Shown: one piece after another, positions 56,198 through 63,998 of the stretch | Position numbering within the stretch: the first letter of the stretch is position 1 | Layout: each line of letters starts with the position of its first letter | NCBI GenBank assembly: GCA_937801655.1 | Contig: CALMWC010000010.1 | Location: 1 to 64,000 of the forward strand | From: an uncultured Gammaproteobacteria bacterium | GTDB taxonomy: Bacteria > Pseudomonadota > Gammaproteobacteria > Steroidobacterales > UBA11654 | Length of the DNA: 64,000 nucleotides | Reading direction: 5' to 3' | Notes under the pieces: model-generated | The model's input: the letters and a program-made list of their open reading frames with translations, nothing else | Told to the model about the DNA's origin: nothing | The model's database searches: none | Position numbers and translations under genes: made by a program

Positions 56198-56209
56198 AGG
56201 AGTTTATTG

Positions 56210-56941
56210 ATGGAGCATCAGAATATCTTCGGACGGATTGCCTATACATCAAAAAAAGAAGAATTGATGAATCAGCCTAGAGGGCATGAAACATTTCATA
56301 TAACCAAGCATAATGATGGTAATGTCACTTTGAGAGCTCATTGTGAAATTGAAGAGCCAAAGCCATCAGTAATGCGAGATGTCATTCTAGCTCAAGACAA
56401 GAATAATAAACCAACAGATTGTTTCATTCGATTGACAGTTGGGGATGAATTCATGGGTTCGGGTTGGTTTCGTTTCGATTTAGATGAAACGGGTGATGGG
56501 ATTATAGAGTGTGAGTCTTTTGGGCCGTCGATAGATCGCGTCTCCCAAAAAGAAAAAACAAACGGATCTTTTCATGCATTTGGAACACACCCAATAGTGG
56601 GAGACGGCTTTAACTGTAAATCAATAGATATCAGTAAAGGACCAGTGATTGAAACCATGAGATGCTTTATGCCATCTCTCGATCATAGAGGTGCCACACC
56701 ACCGTTAATATCAGAGTTAACCATAGATTGTCAGTATCATGGTATGGAGGAGGTAACAGTTCAAGCAGGGGTATTCAATTGCCATCACTTTAGTTATATT
56801 GATGATGTGGGATTCAATGAAGGTGTTAAGCATCCACCTTATGATATATGGCTTACTGAAGATGACTTTATTATTGTACAGGCTTCAGTAACTGGTTATA
56901 TGCAGACTTGGTATGAATTGGTTGAATTAAGGTATGACTAA
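56210..56941 (+). CDS. Unrecognised lipocalin-like protein in the fad operon
   Basis: A 243-residue protein I cannot place in a named family. It has no signal peptide or membrane span. It has alternating strands, for example GNVTLRAHCEI, GSGWFRFDLDETGDGIIECESFGPS, HGMEEVTVQAGVFNCHHFSYI and DFIIVQASVTGYMQTWYELVEL, which suggest a beta barrel or a ligand-binding fold. AAGGAG lies 7 bases before ATG 56210 (TTG 56207 is less likely). It is co-transcribed with fadI and fadJ, so a role in handling fatty acids or their CoA esters is likely, but unproven. Confidence 0.75.
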   Translation: MEHQNIFGRIAYTSKKEELMNQPRGHETFHITKHNDGNVTLRAHCEIEEPKPSVMRDVILAQDKNNKPTDCFIRLTVGDEFMGSGWFRFDLDETGDGIIECESFGPSIDRVSQKEKTNGSFHAFGTHPIVGDGFNCKSIDISKGPVIETMRCFMPSLDHRGATPPLISELTIDCQYHGMEEVTVQAGVFNCHHFSYIDDVGFNEGVKHPPYDIWLTEDDFIIVQASVTGYMQTWYELVELRYD

Positions 56942-56946
56942 AAAAT

Positions 56947-57450
56947 TTATAGTTGGATATTAATCAATTCTTTTTCAATTAATTCAATATCATCTTTATT
57001 GGCTTGATAGCGTATACCAAAACCCCCAGCTTCTTTCCATTGAATAATATTGTCTGGACGGTCATCGATTAAAATATTTTTTGTTCCTTGATATTGAGCA
57101 AAAGGAGATTTCTCTCTAACAATAAAAATTTCTTCTGGTAAGGGAGATAAATTTTTTTGAATCCATATTTTTTTTTGAATGATTGTATTTTCTTCATCAT
57201 TTCTTAATGGGGATGAAAGTATTGAATAGGATCCAGAAAAACCAAGAGCTAATTGTATAATCTGATCACAGGAAGGAGTCTTAGGTATATTTGCAAAAAA
57301 ATCACTTCCTATTATTCGATCCAATTCTTCTGCCAACTCCTCTTCAGTAAGTTCTTTCCAGTGATTAACGCCTGCCCAATCAGCAAAGGCTCTGAAAAAA
57401 TCTGCTAGGACACCATCCATGTCCAAAAAAACAATGGCTCGATTGTGCAT
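56947..57450 (-). CDS. HAD family 5'(3')-deoxyribonucleotidase-like protein
   Basis: A 167-residue HAD hydrolase. FLDMDGVLADFFRAFADWAG holds motif I (two Asp) and SILSSPLRND corresponds to motif II. IREKSPFAQYQGTKNILIDDRPDNI carries motif III and the metal-binding Asp pair. The NT5C-type nucleotidases have this layout. It may recycle deoxynucleotides. It follows the SDR gene after 6 bases at the end of the leftward run. Confidence 0.78.
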   Translation of the reverse strand: MHNRAIVFLDMDGVLADFFRAFADWAGVNHWKELTEEELAEELDRIIGSDFFANIPKTPSCDQIIQLALGFSGSYSILSSPLRNDEENTIIQKKIWIQKNLSPLPEEIFIVREKSPFAQYQGTKNILIDDRPDNIIQWKEAGGFGIRYQANKDDIELIEKELINIQL

Positions 57451-57456
57451 AGAATT

Positions 57457-58203
57457 TTATATTCTTGATAAAAGGCGTTTGCCTAGCAAATTAGAGATAA
57501 AAATAACTGGTCTCCATTGCCAGGGTAAAATATAGGTTTTCTTACCATTATCAATTGCTTTGACCATCTTAGTTGCAGCCACATCAGTGTCCATTAAAAA
57601 AGGCATATTAAATTCATTGATGTCTGTCATTTCACTTTTAATATAGCCGGGGCATATCGTTGTTACCTGAATATTATATTTTTTAAGATAACCCCTCCAG
57701 CTATCCGCTAGTCTTCTAACCGCTACTTTTGATGCAGCATAGCCTCCAAAGAATGCTGGTAAAGTAAAGCTTGCGATTGAAGAAATGATAACAATCTTGC
57801 CATTTTTTGTATCTTTCATACTAGGAATGAAGGGCAATATTGTATTGGTTACACCAAGTATATTGGTAATTAATGTTTGATTTATTTGTGTGGCATCCCC
57901 AGATGATAAATGGTCTGAATAAGCTACACCTGCATTGGCTATAATTATATCAATTCCTTTTTCTGAGTAGTTCATGAATTCCAGACAGATACGACTAGAT
58001 TTTTCTTGATCAGCAACATCAAGTGAGTAGGTAATCACTTCTTTAGCCCCTTCATCCAAGCATTGTTGTTTTATTTTGATGAGTTTTTCTTCTCGTCTAG
58101 CAGCTAAACCTAGTATAGCTCCTCGTCTTGCATACTCTATTGCGATCTGGGCACCAATTCCACTGCTTGCTCCAGTTATAAATACTTTTTCATTTTCTTT
58201 CAT
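57457..58203 (-). CDS. Short-chain dehydrogenase/reductase
   Basis: A 248-residue classical SDR. It has VFITGASSGIGAQIA, ANAGVAYSDH, IISSIASFTL and the catalytic YAASKVAVRRL. It uses NAD(P)H on an unknown substrate. The C-terminal region with LPWQWRPVIFISNLLGK is hydrophobic, typical of SDRs that bind to membranes. It lies between the double DsbA-like gene and the HAD gene. Confidence 0.85.
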   Translation of the reverse strand: MKENEKVFITGASSGIGAQIAIEYARRGAILGLAARREEKLIKIKQQCLDEGAKEVITYSLDVADQEKSSRICLEFMNYSEKGIDIIIANAGVAYSDHLSSGDATQINQTLITNILGVTNTILPFIPSMKDTKNGKIVIISSIASFTLPAFFGGYAASKVAVRRLADSWRGYLKKYNIQVTTICPGYIKSEMTDINEFNMPFLMDTDVAATKMVKAIDNGKKTYILPWQWRPVIFISNLLGKRLLSRI

Positions 58204-58245
58204 GATTAGGGTTTTAATAAGTTAAAAATTGTTTACTAATTTATA

Positions 58246-59583
58246 TTATTTATCTTTATCTTTCATTAAATACATCATTTCTTCAATCAACCATAATCTA
58301 TCCTGCCCCCAAAGATTTATAAGAACTTCATTGTTTTGGTTTTTTACTGCAAAGCTAGGCGGTCCCCATTTACCAATTTTATACATCGCTTTTCTATTGT
58401 TTTCTATTTCTTCTCTCCAGTAATCTGTATCTAACTCTTTTTTTGCATCATCCCAGGGTAAGTCGAGTTTCCGAATTATATTTTTTAAAGTGCTATCTAA
58501 ATAACCATGTTTTCCATTTGCCCAAACAGCGGTAAGAAATAGATCAAAAAACTCTTCTTCTTTATTGAGTTCTTTGACATATGGAAATAAAGAATAAAAA
58601 CGCTCGACAGCCCTTCCTAGAGGGTCAGTAATATTTCCAAAAGAGATTTCTTTTTGATTTGCTATTCTTTTGCAATCACTCAATATATACATACCTTTTT
58701 CAAGATCAATTTTCATACCTCGCATTACCATAGGTAGAATTGGACGATAATTAATCTTCAGTGGCAATTGTTTTTTGAGTTCTATCAGTTGTTTTAGAGC
58801 CAGATAACTATATGGGCTTCTAGCTGAAATGAAAAAATCAATTGTCATTTTTTGGGAAGAGATCAAGGGTGTATTTTTTTTCAAAGAATGTCGTTTTATC
58901 ACTAATTCTTTATTGTCTTTTCTCACATTTAGATCTTTCAACCTTTCTTCTAAAAATGGTAAACGGTCAATGCTCCAGTAACACTCACCTTCATAAGCAA
59001 ATACAGCACCAAGGTAGTGACCAAGTTGTTTTCGTTTTTTGTTATTGGCCTCAATCCTTTCTTTTACATCTTGATGAGTAATTGGTTTAGTTTTTTTCAG
59101 CATCTCATCAAGAGCTATCCTATTATTCTGCCAAAGAGCTTCACCAACTCTTTTAGCTTTAGAGGCAAATTGAGTAGAGTTTGTTGATAGCAGAATAGAT
59201 TGTGCTTTTTCTATCATCTCTATAGGTATCTCATTTCTCTTAGTAGAAAAATTCAAACCATAGTATGGAGCAATAATAGTGGCATCATCAATACTATGTT
59301 GTTTTAAAAGCTCTACCTCAGGTGTAGTTGATTGAGGAGGCATGCCTACAACCAAAGGTATTATTTTTATTTCATAGCTAGCGGTCAATTGATCGAGAAC
59401 TTGGCAACAAAGATGACTGTAAGGGTCATCAACCTGATGGAGATAAAATACCTCATGAGGTCTGTTATTCTTTATTCTTAAAGATTCTTTTTTATTTCTT
59501 TTCTTATGTTGTGTTGATTGAGATAAGAATTTTTTTAGATATCGTCGTCTACCTTCAAGTATTAACCAATCGATAATCATCAT
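58246..59583 (-). CDS. Double DsbA/HCCA-isomerase-like protein
   Basis: A protein of about 445 residues with two thioredoxin-fold halves. The N-terminal half starts EVFYLHQVDDPYSHLCCQVLDQL. The C-terminal half starts TIDFFISARSPYSYLALKQL and has FLTAVWANGKHGYLD and KWGPPSFAVKNQNNEVLINLWGQDRL. The second half matches 2-hydroxychromene-2-carboxylate isomerase (GST kappa) and the first is like DsbA but lacks CxxC. No signal peptide, so it probably works in the cytoplasm, perhaps with glutathione. The start is either ATG 59583 or GTG 59616 (then 29 bases overlap with the LLM gene). Function unknown. Confidence 0.78.
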   Translation of the reverse strand: MMIIDWLILEGRRRYLKKFLSQSTQHKKRNKKESLRIKNNRPHEVFYLHQVDDPYSHLCCQVLDQLTASYEIKIIPLVVGMPPQSTTPEVELLKQHSIDDATIIAPYYGLNFSTKRNEIPIEMIEKAQSILLSTNSTQFASKAKRVGEALWQNNRIALDEMLKKTKPITHQDVKERIEANNKKRKQLGHYLGAVFAYEGECYWSIDRLPFLEERLKDLNVRKDNKELVIKRHSLKKNTPLISSQKMTIDFFISARSPYSYLALKQLIELKKQLPLKINYRPILPMVMRGMKIDLEKGMYILSDCKRIANQKEISFGNITDPLGRAVERFYSLFPYVKELNKEEEFFDLFLTAVWANGKHGYLDSTLKNIIRKLDLPWDDAKKELDTDYWREEIENNRKAMYKIGKWGPPSFAVKNQNNEVLINLWGQDRLWLIEEMMYLMKDKDK

Positions 59584-59587
59584 TACT

Positions 59588-60658
59588 TTATTGAAGAGCG
59601 GGTAATATTTTTTCACCTATCATCTTTAGACCATTCATTGGGTCATCAAAGAGCCTGATGGAAAGATCCGTCATACCACCAGCTTTAAATTTCTTAAAAC
59701 GCTCCAATTCTCGATCAATATCATTGAAGTCTCCAGCTGAACACAAATCATCTATGAGTTTATTAACCAATGAGTCTGGTACATTTTCGATAATGCCTGA
59801 TCGGCTAATGTAAGCTTTAGCGAATTCATTATTCGCTCCCGCATTCCAATTATCCATAACGATTTGTACTTCTTCGTCATCCAAGAAATGATGAAGTGTG
59901 AAGGGAGGTAATAACGATCCTCTAAAAACAAGCTCTCTCCTTGCTTCTTTAAGCGATAGTTCTTTTTCTTCTTTAATATGCCATGCCCAAAAATTACCAA
60001 TTCTAAAATCCTCAGGAGGTTCAGATCTTTTCTCCACGCCAATGTGTATATTTTTCATTGCTTCATCAAGCATGGGCAGAGCGACATCACTCATTTGCAG
60101 GCCATCAGCATATTGACCTCCCAACCTGAGCATTTGTTCTTCTGTAGAACATGTGTATATTTTTGGACGATTTGATTTTGCCCAGGTGAAACCTTGCATA
60201 TATGGTCTTGTGATATTAAATATTTCACCTTCATACTTGAGATTAAATTTTTTCTGAGAAGCTGAAGTCAAAATTTCCACAGCTTCCCTCACAGCTCTTA
60301 TAATACGAAAGGGCTTCAATCCAGGACAAGCTTCTTCTTCACATGAAAATTTCATTGCACCCAATGTTCCACCACCCGCACCTACAGCGATGATTGCTCG
60401 TCCATTAGAAAGTTCATTTAGAGTCAGCAAGGCATTAGCCATTTTTAATGGATGCATCTCAAAAGGACTCACTGCTAGAGGTCCTAGTAGTATTTTACTT
60501 GTTCTTTGTGCTGCTGGAATCAGACTCATAAATGCATCCCATTGTTGATGATAGTTAGAAGTCCATAGAGCTCTGACACCATATTCTTCAGCCTTTACAG
60601 CAATTTCTGCAACTTCATTTGGATGTAAGTCCGGTTCGAGAATTATTTCTATATCCAT
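59588..60658 (-). CDS. LLM class flavin-dependent oxidoreductase
   Basis: A 356-residue luciferase-like TIM-barrel protein. It has ALWTSNYHQQWDAFM, LLGPLAVSPFEMHPLKMANALLTLNELSNGRAIIAVGAGGG and YTCSTEEQMLRLGGQYADGLQMSD. These match F420/FMN-dependent LLM enzymes such as methylenetetrahydromethanopterin reductase. The cofactor (F420 or FMN) cannot be told. It begins 19 bases after the PduO-type gene stop and lies within the putative B12-controlled run. Confidence 0.84.
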   Translation of the reverse strand: MDIEIILEPDLHPNEVAEIAVKAEEYGVRALWTSNYHQQWDAFMSLIPAAQRTSKILLGPLAVSPFEMHPLKMANALLTLNELSNGRAIIAVGAGGGTLGAMKFSCEEEACPGLKPFRIIRAVREAVEILTSASQKKFNLKYEGEIFNITRPYMQGFTWAKSNRPKIYTCSTEEQMLRLGGQYADGLQMSDVALPMLDEAMKNIHIGVEKRSEPPEDFRIGNFWAWHIKEEKELSLKEARRELVFRGSLLPPFTLHHFLDDEEVQIVMDNWNAGANNEFAKAYISRSGIIENVPDSLVNKLIDDLCSAGDFNDIDRELERFKKFKAGGMTDLSIRLFDDPMNGLKMIGEKILPALQ

Positions 60659-60677
60659 GCGTAAAAAAAACCTTTAA

Positions 60678-61226
60678 TTATTTTCTTTCATGATCCCAGA
60701 TTGTCTCTTCGCCTACTTCCCTTGCTAATGTTCTGGCTATGACAAAGAATGCATCCGATAGTCGATTGATGTATTTGAGTGATTGTTTATTCACCTCTTT
60801 TTCTTCTGCTAATTTGAATAATTCTCTCTCAGCTCTTCTGCATATTGCTCTGGATTGATGAGTAAATGCAGAGCTTTTATTCACTCCTGGGACAACAAAA
60901 TCCTTTAATGCTGGAAGTTTTTCATTCAATTCATCTATAAATATTTCAATGGCTGTTACTTTATTTTCATCAATACTTTGGAACTGAGGGGCTGATATTT
61001 CTCCGGATATATTGAATAAGTTTTGTTGCACTCCATTGAGGAAGTCCAAAATATGTATGGGGATGTTTTCTTCAGTTGTAATCAAACCAATAGCAGCGCT
61101 TAACTCATCAATTGACCCATAGACTTGTATCGTTTGATCGTATTTAGGCACTCTTTGATTGCCACCAATATCAGTGGAACCATCATCCCCTTTTTTTGTG
61201 AAAATTTTTGTTAATCTATTGCCCAT
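60678..61226 (-). CDS. pduO: Cob(I)yrinic acid a,c-diamide / cob(I)alamin adenosyltransferase, PduO type
   Basis: A 182-residue PduO/MMAB-type enzyme, forming a trimer. It has IFTKKGDDGSTDIGGNQRVPK at the N-terminus (ATP-binding), YGSIDELSAAIGL, FVVPGVNKSSAFTHQSRAICRRAERE and YINRLSDAFFVIARTLARE. It adds the adenosyl group to cobalamin. It follows the BtuB-like receptor gene after 60 bases under the riboswitch, so uptake and activation of B12 are together. Confidence 0.93.
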   Translation of the reverse strand: MGNRLTKIFTKKGDDGSTDIGGNQRVPKYDQTIQVYGSIDELSAAIGLITTEENIPIHILDFLNGVQQNLFNISGEISAPQFQSIDENKVTAIEIFIDELNEKLPALKDFVVPGVNKSSAFTHQSRAICRRAERELFKLAEEKEVNKQSLKYINRLSDAFFVIARTLAREVGEETIWDHERK

Positions 61227-61286
61227 AATTTAATCCTCTCTCTTATAGATATCTTATCGTTTATGAAGCTATAGAAGCAAAGAATT

Positions 61287-63077
61287 TTACAACGAAGGCC
61301 TGTAGGTGAATCCTATGAATGCTTTTCTTTTAGCCGTTTGATAACCGTTAGCTAGAGTGTACTCTTCATCAGTAAAATTATTTAATGCTGCTTTGAAAGA
61401 TAAGCGATTATTCATACGATATCTCATGACTATATTTCCAATTAAATATTGATTTAATTTTACACCTCCAAAATCAATACGGGATGAGTTTTTAGACATA
61501 TTTATATTAAGATCTAGTTTTCCAAAACTTCTTCTTAAGCCCATTCCAATAGAACTTTTAGGCCTTCTCAATAAACGACTATGATTGGTGATGTTATCTG
61601 CTTCTTGAATTATGGCATTAAAATTAAATTCCCAATTCATAATTAAGGTGGAGAACTCAAAATCAAGCCCTTTTATTAATGCTTCTTCAATATTGTAGAG
61701 TTTATAATCAGAATAGTTAAAAGCTATTAACTCATCAATTGAATTTTCAAAAAATCTTAGTCCAATACTACCCAATTCATTCGGTGTATATTGGACTCCA
61801 ATGCTTTTATTATTTGATACTTCGGGAAGTAATGTTTGGTTTCCGCCAAAACCATAAAGATCAAAATTTGAAGGGTTACGAATTGCTTTACCGAGATTGA
61901 TAATGAACTTGATCTTGGTATTTACTTTATATCCATATTCTAAATTCCAGGTGTCTTCATCTTCGATTGCTTCTTTATTATTCAATCTCATTGCTATTAA
62001 TAATTGATGTTTATCAAGAAGCATAAGATTTTCTAAATAAATCGCATCACTGGATAAATCAGTATTCACAACCAAGCCATAATTACTTGCATCAAATTCT
62101 TCTTTTTCATGGACGTATCCAATAATTAACTCATTGGAGGGATTCCACTGGAAATTATTCTGCCATTCCAATGATAACTTTTTGCTGTGATTAAAGTCTG
62201 CAGAATTATTCTGATCAATTTTATCTTTACTTAAATTAAGGCTGAGGCTGGATAACCATAAATCATTGATTGGATTTTTTATATTTATAGCAGAGACTAT
62301 ATTGTCAAAATCCTGACTGACTGGACTGAGAAAAAAGTCCATATATTCAGTTGTGCCTGATGAACTCCAGATGCTAGTTTTAATTACCCTTTGACCATCG
62401 TTAATTTGAAAGTAGCCATGCAATGAATTATTGTCATAGCCATTATCAATAGTACTATTAACTTTAGCGGGGAAGCCATCAGTTTGGTAATGACTCCATT
62501 GCAAACCAGTTGTAATATTCTCATTATTTCTAGAGGCCATAAGATTTATGTTTTTCATATTATCTGAGCCAGTTGTGAGAGAGGTTTGCACATTATTTCC
62601 CTTATCTTTCTTAGTGAAGATATTGATTACACCACCTATAGCATGAGATCCATATAGGCTGGTTCTAGGCGCTTTAACAATTTCAATTTTATCAATTAAG
62701 TCAGGATTAATATTTTGGATAGCAGCTATTCCAGTAGCTGAATCATTGATAGCTACACCATCAAGCAAAACAAGGACATGATTACTATTTGAACCTTGAA
62801 CAAATAAAGATGTTAGCTGACCTGGGCCTCCATTGACTGAAATATCTATTCCGCCCACAAAACGGAGTAACTCTGCTAAATTATTTGCTCCTGAAAGGGC
62901 AATATCTTCAGAAGAGAGAATCGTCATTGGTGCAGTTATATTGTCTTTGGTAACACTCGTTTTTGTAGCAGTAACAATAAGATTCTCAAGATCGTCAATA
63001 CTTTCTGAGAATGAAGGGACAGTGAATATTGAAACACAAAGAACTGAGAGAGTGGTTCTTTTTAATAGTTTGATCAT
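61287..63077 (-). CDS. btuB: TonB-dependent cobalamin receptor, BtuB-like
   Basis: A 596-residue outer-membrane barrel. It has a signal peptide (to about residue 24), a TonB-box-like ENLIVTATKT, a plug domain (ITAPMTILSSEDIAL, LLDGVAINDSATG, RTSLYGSHAIGGVINIFTK) and a C-terminal barrel that ends FTYRPSL. It brings B12 across the outer membrane with TonB energy. BtuB is the best name because a cobalamin riboswitch lies directly upstream and a B12 adenosyltransferase downstream. No btuFCD genes are in the window. Confidence 0.92.
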   Translation of the reverse strand: MIKLLKRTTLSVLCVSIFTVPSFSESIDDLENLIVTATKTSVTKDNITAPMTILSSEDIALSGANNLAELLRFVGGIDISVNGGPGQLTSLFVQGSNSNHVLVLLDGVAINDSATGIAAIQNINPDLIDKIEIVKAPRTSLYGSHAIGGVINIFTKKDKGNNVQTSLTTGSDNMKNINLMASRNNENITTGLQWSHYQTDGFPAKVNSTIDNGYDNNSLHGYFQINDGQRVIKTSIWSSSGTTEYMDFFLSPVSQDFDNIVSAINIKNPINDLWLSSLSLNLSKDKIDQNNSADFNHSKKLSLEWQNNFQWNPSNELIIGYVHEKEEFDASNYGLVVNTDLSSDAIYLENLMLLDKHQLLIAMRLNNKEAIEDEDTWNLEYGYKVNTKIKFIINLGKAIRNPSNFDLYGFGGNQTLLPEVSNNKSIGVQYTPNELGSIGLRFFENSIDELIAFNYSDYKLYNIEEALIKGLDFEFSTLIMNWEFNFNAIIQEADNITNHSRLLRRPKSSIGMGLRRSFGKLDLNINMSKNSSRIDFGGVKLNQYLIGNIVMRYRMNNRLSFKAALNNFTDEEYTLANGYQTAKRKAFIGFTYRPSL

Positions 63078-63159
63078 AATTATTCCTCATAATGAAGTAT
63101 ATATGCAGGAAAACGCCAAACTTAATGAACGCACCCACCCGTACTATAATTTATGTTAA

Positions 63160-63326
63160 GTCGGTCTCCGGGCTAACAAGCAGTTACCTTAGCAATAAAC
63201 CTTCCCATCTTTTGACAGTGGCTTGAATAGATTACTATTCTTTTATTGCCTTTAACTTGATTACCGTTGCGGGGGCAGCGTTGGAATATTTTATTTCACC
63301 AACTTCCCAATCAGCTTTCACTGAAA
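63160..63326 (-). promoter_or_regulatory. Cobalamin riboswitch upstream of btuB
   Basis: On the minus strand the conserved parts appear in order: GGGAAG and GGTGAAA, GCTGCCCCCGCAACGGTAA, AAGCCACTG, GATGGGAAGG, and the B12 box AGCCCGGAGACC (63163-63174). This is the class with all core segments. About 85 bases lie between it and the btuB ATG at 63077, with AGGA near the start. Binding of cobalamin would lower expression of btuB and probably of the genes after it. Confidence 0.95.
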
Positions 63327-63368
63327 CTCAACAAATTCATTTAACCCTAAAAGTATTAATTTGTAAAC

Positions 63369-63998
63369 TTAGGGTTGAAGTCTTTTTTTTATCCATCCTT
63401 TAGTTGAAATATATCGACCATCTTTTAGTGATAAATCTCGTTGAAAAAGTAAACGATCATGAAATCTATCATTTTGATTTAGCCAAATTTCTATTTCATG
63501 GATCCAGATTCTATAGCCACCCCAAAACGGCGGTCTGGGTAATTTTTGATCATTTTCCATGAGTTGTTTTTGTTTGATATTAAATTTTTTTAATGTGGCA
63601 TCAAATTGTTTTTCAAGATCCTTTCTATTGCCAATACTATTGCTTTGTTCACTCGCCCAAGCCGCAACTTGACTGCCTAGAGAACGTGATAAGAAGTAAT
63701 CATCACTTTCATCTCTTGGTGATTTTAAGGCGAAACCCTTAATTCGAACTTGATAGCCATAATTATCCCAATGAAATACACCGCTGCATTCAGATTGATA
63801 ATCAAGCTCAATTGCTTTTGTAGAATTGTAATTGGTGTAGAAGACAATATATCCATCTTCAATATCAATCTCTTTGCAAAGAACCATACGGGCATTCGAA
63901 GAGCCTTCTCGGTTTGTTGTAGCAATAGAAAAACAATTAGGGTTGGGTTGCTTTCCATCATTACTGACTTCCTTCATCCAATCGTTTAAGACCTTCAT
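63369..63998 (-). CDS. pdxH: Pyridoxamine 5'-phosphate oxidase, probably missing a short N-terminus
   Basis: A 209-residue FMN enzyme. It has SSNARMVLCKEID, IVFYTNYNSTKAIEL (FMN phosphate), VFHWDNYGYQVRIKGFALK, SRSLGSQVAAWASEQS and a C-terminal WGGYRIW plus RLQP. It oxidises PNP/PMP to PLP. ATG 63998 is the first usable start but lies 2 bases from the window edge. Family members are 210-218 residues, so a few more residues may lie beyond. It is convergent to nothing in the window and sits upstream of the riboswitch. Confidence 0.93.
   Translation of the reverse strand: MKVLNDWMKEVSNDGKQPNPNCFSIATTNREGSSNARMVLCKEIDIEDGYIVFYTNYNSTKAIELDYQSECSGVFHWDNYGYQVRIKGFALKSPRDESDDYFLSRSLGSQVAAWASEQSNSIGNRKDLEKQFDATLKKFNIKQKQLMENDQKLPRPPFWGGYRIWIHEIEIWLNQNDRFHDRLLFQRDLSLKDGRYISTKGWIKKRLQP

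Follow-up and report, generated by a model that had tools for sequence, protein, structure and literature searches.

The window, the whole 64,000-nucleotide stretch of DNA analysed here, comes from an uncultured gammaproteobacterium and starts contig 10 of a 1.40 Mb assembly. Near its right end lie a cobalamin riboswitch, the only RF00174 riboswitch in the assembly, and six genes that read leftward from it. Comparisons drew on a family sample of 11 genomes from two genera of marine Gammaproteobacteria and, across the order, on the same 196 genomes searched for each part. From upstream to downstream, the features are:

63369..63998, minus strand: pdxH-like PNPOx gene (PF01243, 57 bits; PF10590, 46 bits), outside the B12 unit
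63339..63367, minus strand: candidate sigma-70-like promoter, TTTACA-17 bases-TTAAAT, a consensus match only, reaching into the 5' end of the annotated aptamer
63142..63346, minus strand: cobalamin riboswitch aptamer RF00174 (cmscan, 80.7 bits, E 2.7e-18)
63078..63141, minus strand: putative expression platform between aptamer and btuB start, with a GTAC-loop-GTAC-like hairpin and without an intrinsic terminator
61287..63077, minus strand: BtuB-like TonB-dependent receptor, 596 aa (TIGR01779, 299.7 bits, full length; Plug domain PF07715)
60678..61226, minus strand: PduO-type ATP:cob(I)alamin adenosyltransferase (ATR), 182 aa (TIGR00636, 162.7 bits; PF01923, 168 bits)
59588..60658, minus strand: LLM-class (bacterial luciferase-like) oxidoreductase, 356 aa (PF00296, 101 bits)
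58246..59583, minus strand: tandem HCCA-isomerase/kappa-GST-like protein ("double-DsbA"), 445 aa (PF01323 on the C-terminal half)
57457..58203, minus strand: short-chain dehydrogenase/reductase (SDR), 248 aa (PF00106, 146 bits; best NCBIfam model below its cut-off)
56947..57450, minus strand: HAD-superfamily NT5C-type phosphatase/nucleotidase-like protein, 167 aa (PF06941, 31 bits against 24.8)

An initial annotation, made from the sequence without database searches, had proposed a cobalamin riboswitch at the head of these six genes, and both parts of that description hold. The aptamer scored far above the gathering score of 31.5 bits and covered positions 1-189 of the 189-position model, while ORF, Pfam and NCBIfam evidence agreed on the genes. 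The intergenic gaps were also as described, with 60 bases between the receptor and ATR genes, 19 between ATR and LLM, 4 (touching) between LLM and double-DsbA, 42 between double-DsbA and SDR, and 6 between SDR and HAD. The interval given for the run, 57457-63326, omits the HAD gene that it names and 20 bases of the aptamer. The next gene beyond HAD (56207-56941) lies on the plus strand, and the run therefore ends at HAD. The 244-aa product of this neighbour had no match in Pfam or NCBIfam, and its gene lies beside HAD in most family genomes.

TIGR01779 was the best of all TonB families for the receptor, yet its 299.7 bits fall short of the equivalog cut-off of 599.7. The name BtuB-like, already used in the initial annotation, is kept on the basis of this full-length, sub-cut-off match together with the riboswitch. 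The ATR passed the equivalog-domain cut-off of TIGR00636 (108.45 bits) and aligned over its full length with 2zhy (1-183), including the CRRAER and NRLSD stretches. With PF06941 above its gathering score, the HAD protein falls among NT5C-type phosphatases. For the double-DsbA gene, the start at 59583 was favoured over a GTG at 59616 and is conserved in several relatives.

Eight family genomes have a contig that extends over this site, and the aptamer was found in each. Upstream of it, the pdxH-like gene stops 22 bases ahead of the aptamer in the window and 7-28 bases ahead in all eight readable family genomes. The best -35/-10 pair fell at the same site in each of these eight, which amount to about four independent groups, and overlapped the pdxH/aptamer junction throughout. 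It had a 17-base spacer and 9-10 of 12 matches, with TTTACA-like (TTGACA in genome G010) and TATAAT-like hexamers starting at -22/-21 and +1/+2 relative to the aptamer start. Given this conserved promoter-like pair, the riboswitch appears to start a transcription unit of its own despite the same-strand pdxH gene upstream.

Between the aptamer and btuB no intrinsic terminator was found. A small GTAC-loop-GTAC hairpin lies 3' of the aptamer (comparison by eye), and some folds of the aptamer-to-start RNA put the btuB start inside a stem; one relative excepted, these folds were not clearly better than those of shuffled sequences. Covariation-type support for the hairpin was set aside, as fold energies were mostly no better than shuffles. 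In E. coli, AdoCbl binding to the btuB riboswitch shuts off translation, and Rho-dependent termination follows, which lowers the mRNA (PMC11162775). From this precedent and the missing terminator we infer that the riboswitch probably acts on btuB translation.

A scan of the region revealed no terminator-like site between genes, in agreement with the initial annotation, and no excess of signals over shuffled sequences (terminator-like 3 versus 4.4; promoter-like 24 versus 33). Ahead of the ATR and LLM genes it returned weaker promoter candidates at scattered positions, none of them conserved. A separate promoter before the LLM gene had been named as one observation that would count against a shared unit; no conserved one was found. 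A possible terminator at the T8 run before LLM was rejected because it has no convincing stem and the ATR-LLM gap is only 2-3 bases in six of the seven other LLM-bearing genomes. The LLM and double-DsbA genes overlap or touch in relatives. At the level of sequence, the run has what a single six-gene unit should have, namely one conserved promoter and neither an internal terminator nor a conserved internal promoter. Considering that the conserved promoter lies at the aptamer, that none precedes ATR or LLM and that terminators are missing, the sequence is most simply read as one transcript running from aptamer to HAD, and such co-transcription is likely.

The best NCBIfam match of the LLM protein was Mer, and its nearest solved structures were all F420-dependent Mer enzymes, which only hints at F420 rather than FMN as the cofactor. 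Three host F420 genes scored above curated cut-offs (CofD 285 versus 257, CofE 264 versus 181, NpdG 168 versus 150) in a search that took in these three, and CofE was present in 11 of 11 family genomes. F420 production by Proteobacteria is already known (PMC8498797). The presence of CofD, CofE and NpdG in the host and of CofE throughout the family makes an F420-dependent LLM plausible, and we consider the enzyme probably F420-dependent. The cofD, cofE and npdG-like genes lie at L306 391-2845 (G000:C9), in a 1.4 Mb marine gammaproteobacterial genome. We also considered a Mer-like one-carbon enzyme paired with a corrinoid methyltransferase system. This was rejected on account of the sub-cut-off Mer scores, the loss of LLM from two relatives, and the context of LLM homologues (60-61% identical) in another family, which adjoin an uppP-looking gene (by eye) and not B12 or one-carbon genes.

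The product of the fourth gene had been called "double DsbA-like". It is indeed a double thioredoxin-fold protein, but the DsbA-type CxxC is absent from all 10 aligned sequences, and it is better described as tandem HCCA-isomerase/kappa-GST-like. The CxxC site is replaced by SARSPYSYLA in the C-terminal half and by (D/N)DPYSHLC in the N-terminal half, SARSPYSYLA and DPYSHLC being invariant in 10 of 10 sequences. A sequence profile of the C-terminal half matched the HCCA isomerase 2imd (E 3e-10). In an AlphaFold2 model (pLDDT 86), the best matches were HCCA isomerase and GST kappa, with E-values of 2e-8 to 1e-7 and a TM by target of 0.71-0.80 against 2imd/GST kappa. The C-terminal half thus combines the fold with the active-site serine in SPxSxL. 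By this model, the protein is a tandem 2-hydroxychromene-2-carboxylate isomerase/kappa-GST-like protein, predicted to be glutathione-dependent and isomerase/transferase-like. A DsbA-type redox partner of cobalamin was rejected on account of the missing CxxC.

Relatives of this protein are encoded in 226 genome stretches of one collection. The neighbours sampled there were GST and beta-oxidation genes (FadJ-like and acyl-CoA dehydrogenase), along with genes for an AMP-binding ligase, DUF3604, nitronate monooxygenase and radical SAM proteins. Among SAR86, SAR92 and Limnobacter genomes, tandem HCCA-isomerase-like proteins are found very frequently, and their genes often have DUF3604, GST or acyl-CoA enzyme genes as neighbours. 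We searched 35 SAR86-type genomes that carry the double-DsbA protein; a B12-binding protein above cut-off was present in 4 and missing from 31. These genomes are often partial, so that missing B12 enzymes are uncertain in any single one, but the trend is strong. The occurrence of the protein in genomes without a detectable B12-binding domain makes a basic cobalamin-requiring role unlikely. A literature search for an HCCA isomerase tied to cobalamin turned up a single paper, which was unrelated.

Within the family, the block of riboswitch, btuB, ATR, usually LLM, double-DsbA, SDR and HAD was present in 11 of 11 genomes as far as their contigs reach. The exceptions to this order were contig ends, two losses of LLM (G006 and G007, both retaining riboswitch, btuB and ATR) and one absence of HAD (G010, with another gene at that place). 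G006 is closely related to the window; there, about 1 kb has been lost at LLM while its neighbours were kept, and the first nine LLM codons now run straight into the sequence that precedes the double-DsbA start. Purifying selection acts on all genes, and where LLM is present it is the gene under the tightest constraint (dN/dS 0.014-0.020). LLM appears to be an optional operon member.

The LLM remnant of G006 (L071 6730-6770) is an 11-codon frame ending in a TAATG overlap with the next gene, and could be an assembly fault. Window positions 56400-59593 are 98-100% identical to G006 (L071) over about 3.2 kb, with a dS of about 0.03. This tract takes in the double-DsbA, SDR and HAD genes together with the greater part of the 244-aa gene on the opposite strand. 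In the same comparison, btuB and ATR were 82-91% identical (dS 0.5-0.7) and the FadJ side 88-96%. The pattern points to a recent recombination tract with its edge at the LLM deletion point.

Outside the family, at least 20 genomes of the order, from several families, carry the riboswitch followed by a same-strand ATR gene about 2-3 kb on, and riboswitch-btuB-ATR is the usual arrangement across the order. Five loci extracted from other families had btuB and then ATR, without LLM, double-DsbA, SDR or HAD. Among the order genomes examined, these four genes (hereafter the tail) followed ATR only in the 11-genome family. The double-DsbA protein itself occurred in 45 genomes outside the family (196 searched), 41 of which also had a listed ATR. 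None of these 41 showed linkage between the two; they lay on separate contigs in 40 and about 2 Mb apart in one, and since a few of these contigs end near the double-DsbA gene, single linked cases could be missed. LLM relatives were found in at least 42 genomes outside the family, none within 10 kb of ATR among the matches listed, and no riboswitch adjoined a double-DsbA gene there among the matches listed. The linkage of the LLM and DsbA-like genes to btuB or pduO, which the initial annotation had suggested looking for in other genomes, therefore holds within the 11-genome family and was absent outside it among the matches listed. The occurrence of btuB-ATR without the tail across other families suggests that the B12 unit is older and shared and that the tail was added by this family. 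On comparative grounds, the tail appears to be a real, lineage-specific operon extension.

The genome has users for the cofactor. A methylmalonyl-CoA mutase cluster (mutase-pccB-pccA-meaB-epimerase-like) is present, and the mutase is the expected AdoCbl customer. At L307 8833-14656 (G000:C10), an MttB-type methyltransferase, an MtgC-like corrinoid protein, an MTHFR-like protein and a GCV_T-domain dehydrogenase are encoded in a row that, by its domains, looks like a corrinoid-dependent demethylation cluster.

Our preferred explanation, with a probability of about 0.68, is that riboswitch-btuB-ATR is a standard B12-scavenging unit to which one marine family appended four genes of other metabolism, which travel as passengers on the transcript. 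What the analysis shows directly are the parts and how well they are conserved, a candidate promoter, an AdoCbl-using enzyme, F420 genes and a tail restricted to this lineage. The transcript would start at the promoter just ahead of the aptamer. When AdoCbl is scarce, the aptamer would leave the btuB start accessible, BtuB would import corrinoid, and ATR would form AdoCbl, most of it destined for methylmalonyl-CoA mutase. With plentiful AdoCbl, the aptamer would shut the btuB start; the untranslated RNA would then end early, and the trailing genes would be lowered by polarity. The tail, made up of an LLM of the F420 type, an isomerase/transferase-like protein that would use glutathione, an SDR and an NT5C-type HAD, would act on organic substrates, probably acyl or lipid-like, and not on cobalamin. 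What we infer here is co-transcription, an OFF switch that acts on translation and has polar effects on the genes behind, and the kind of substrate used by the tail. That the LLM and DsbA-like genes may just share the transcript was one of two options in the initial annotation, and it agrees with the compact block in 11 of 11 family genomes and the single conserved candidate promoter ahead of it.

The other option was that the LLM and DsbA-like proteins take part in cobalt reduction or removal of the upper ligand, one reducing cob(III/II)alamin for ATR and the other stripping the upper ligand with glutathione. Both genes lie directly behind ATR, glutathione-using enzymes share the isomerase-like fold, and MMACHC, which dealkylates cobalamin in a glutathione-dependent manner, offers a precedent. 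This reading is nevertheless very improbable. Linkage to B12 genes was seen in one family and nowhere else among the matches listed, ATR follows btuB without either gene in other families, and LLM is missing from two relatives in which btuB and ATR stayed. Another family of the order has at least ten LLM paralogues per genome, and the double-DsbA protein lacks CxxC and is common in genomes without a B12-binding protein above cut-off. Cobalamin handling by the tail proteins is thus unlikely.

The retention of the tail behind ATR in two genera could still reflect a real functional coupling, although gene-order linkage by itself says little about shared function or regulation in a family whose gene order is generally conserved, the upstream pdxH being kept at the same place just as well. 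One form of coupling would be a B12-starvation response, in which the tail is switched on at low B12, like metE, and spares B12 or replaces an AdoCbl- or methylcorrinoid-dependent step. Cobalamin riboswitches can control isozymes that replace B12-dependent enzymes (PMC3766115), and the AdoCbl- and corrinoid-dependent pathways of the host could need a bypass. We consider this unlikely, as the four tail proteins show no likeness to any known B12-independent isozyme, two relatives do without LLM, and the double-DsbA protein is present where B12-binding proteins were undetectable. That the riboswitch governs a starvation-induced set of F420- and glutathione-type enzymes replacing or sparing an AdoCbl-dependent step, a new kind of B12-regulon member, is quite improbable. 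If the riboswitch acts solely on btuB translation, ATR and the tail would be expressed independently of B12, via read-through or undetected internal promoters, and B12 might then have no effect on the tail. The missing terminator between aptamer and btuB fits such translational control, and the tail proteins are elsewhere unrelated to B12. We find this improbable too, given the overlapping or touching LLM and double-DsbA genes of relatives, the lack of a positionally conserved promoter before ATR or LLM, and the E. coli btuB riboswitch, which lowers mRNA too, through Rho (PMC11162775).

Under the passenger explanation, one streamlined marine lineage would have lengthened its B12-riboswitch operon with genes of other metabolism, a caution that riboswitch linkage alone is a poor guide to function. 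If the tail does respond to B12, these bacteria would couple catabolism that depends on F420 and glutathione to the vitamin supply of the ocean.

Compared with known systems, the window LLM shares its family and nearest structures with Mer and other LLM F420 enzymes, and its host encodes CofD, CofE and NpdG; unlike Mer, it scores far below the Mer equivalog cut-offs (PRK02271 model, 109.6 versus 276; TIGR03555, 76.7 versus 348.7). The double-DsbA protein has the fold of 2imd and of the kappa-class GSTs 1r4w and 3rpn, and its C-terminal half shares their SPYSYLA motif with the serine position. It differs from them in being a tandem protein of 445 aa whose N-terminal half has DDPYSHLC instead of the serine motif. 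The riboswitch-btuB-ATR operons of other families in the order resemble the window in having a PduO-type ATR about 2-3 kb from the riboswitch, whereas the five extracted loci have no tail gene behind it. The E. coli btuB locus (RF00174) likewise has an aptamer before a TonB-dependent corrinoid receptor, no intrinsic terminator and probable translational OFF control; at the window locus, in contrast, btuB is followed on its own strand by ATR and then by four more genes.
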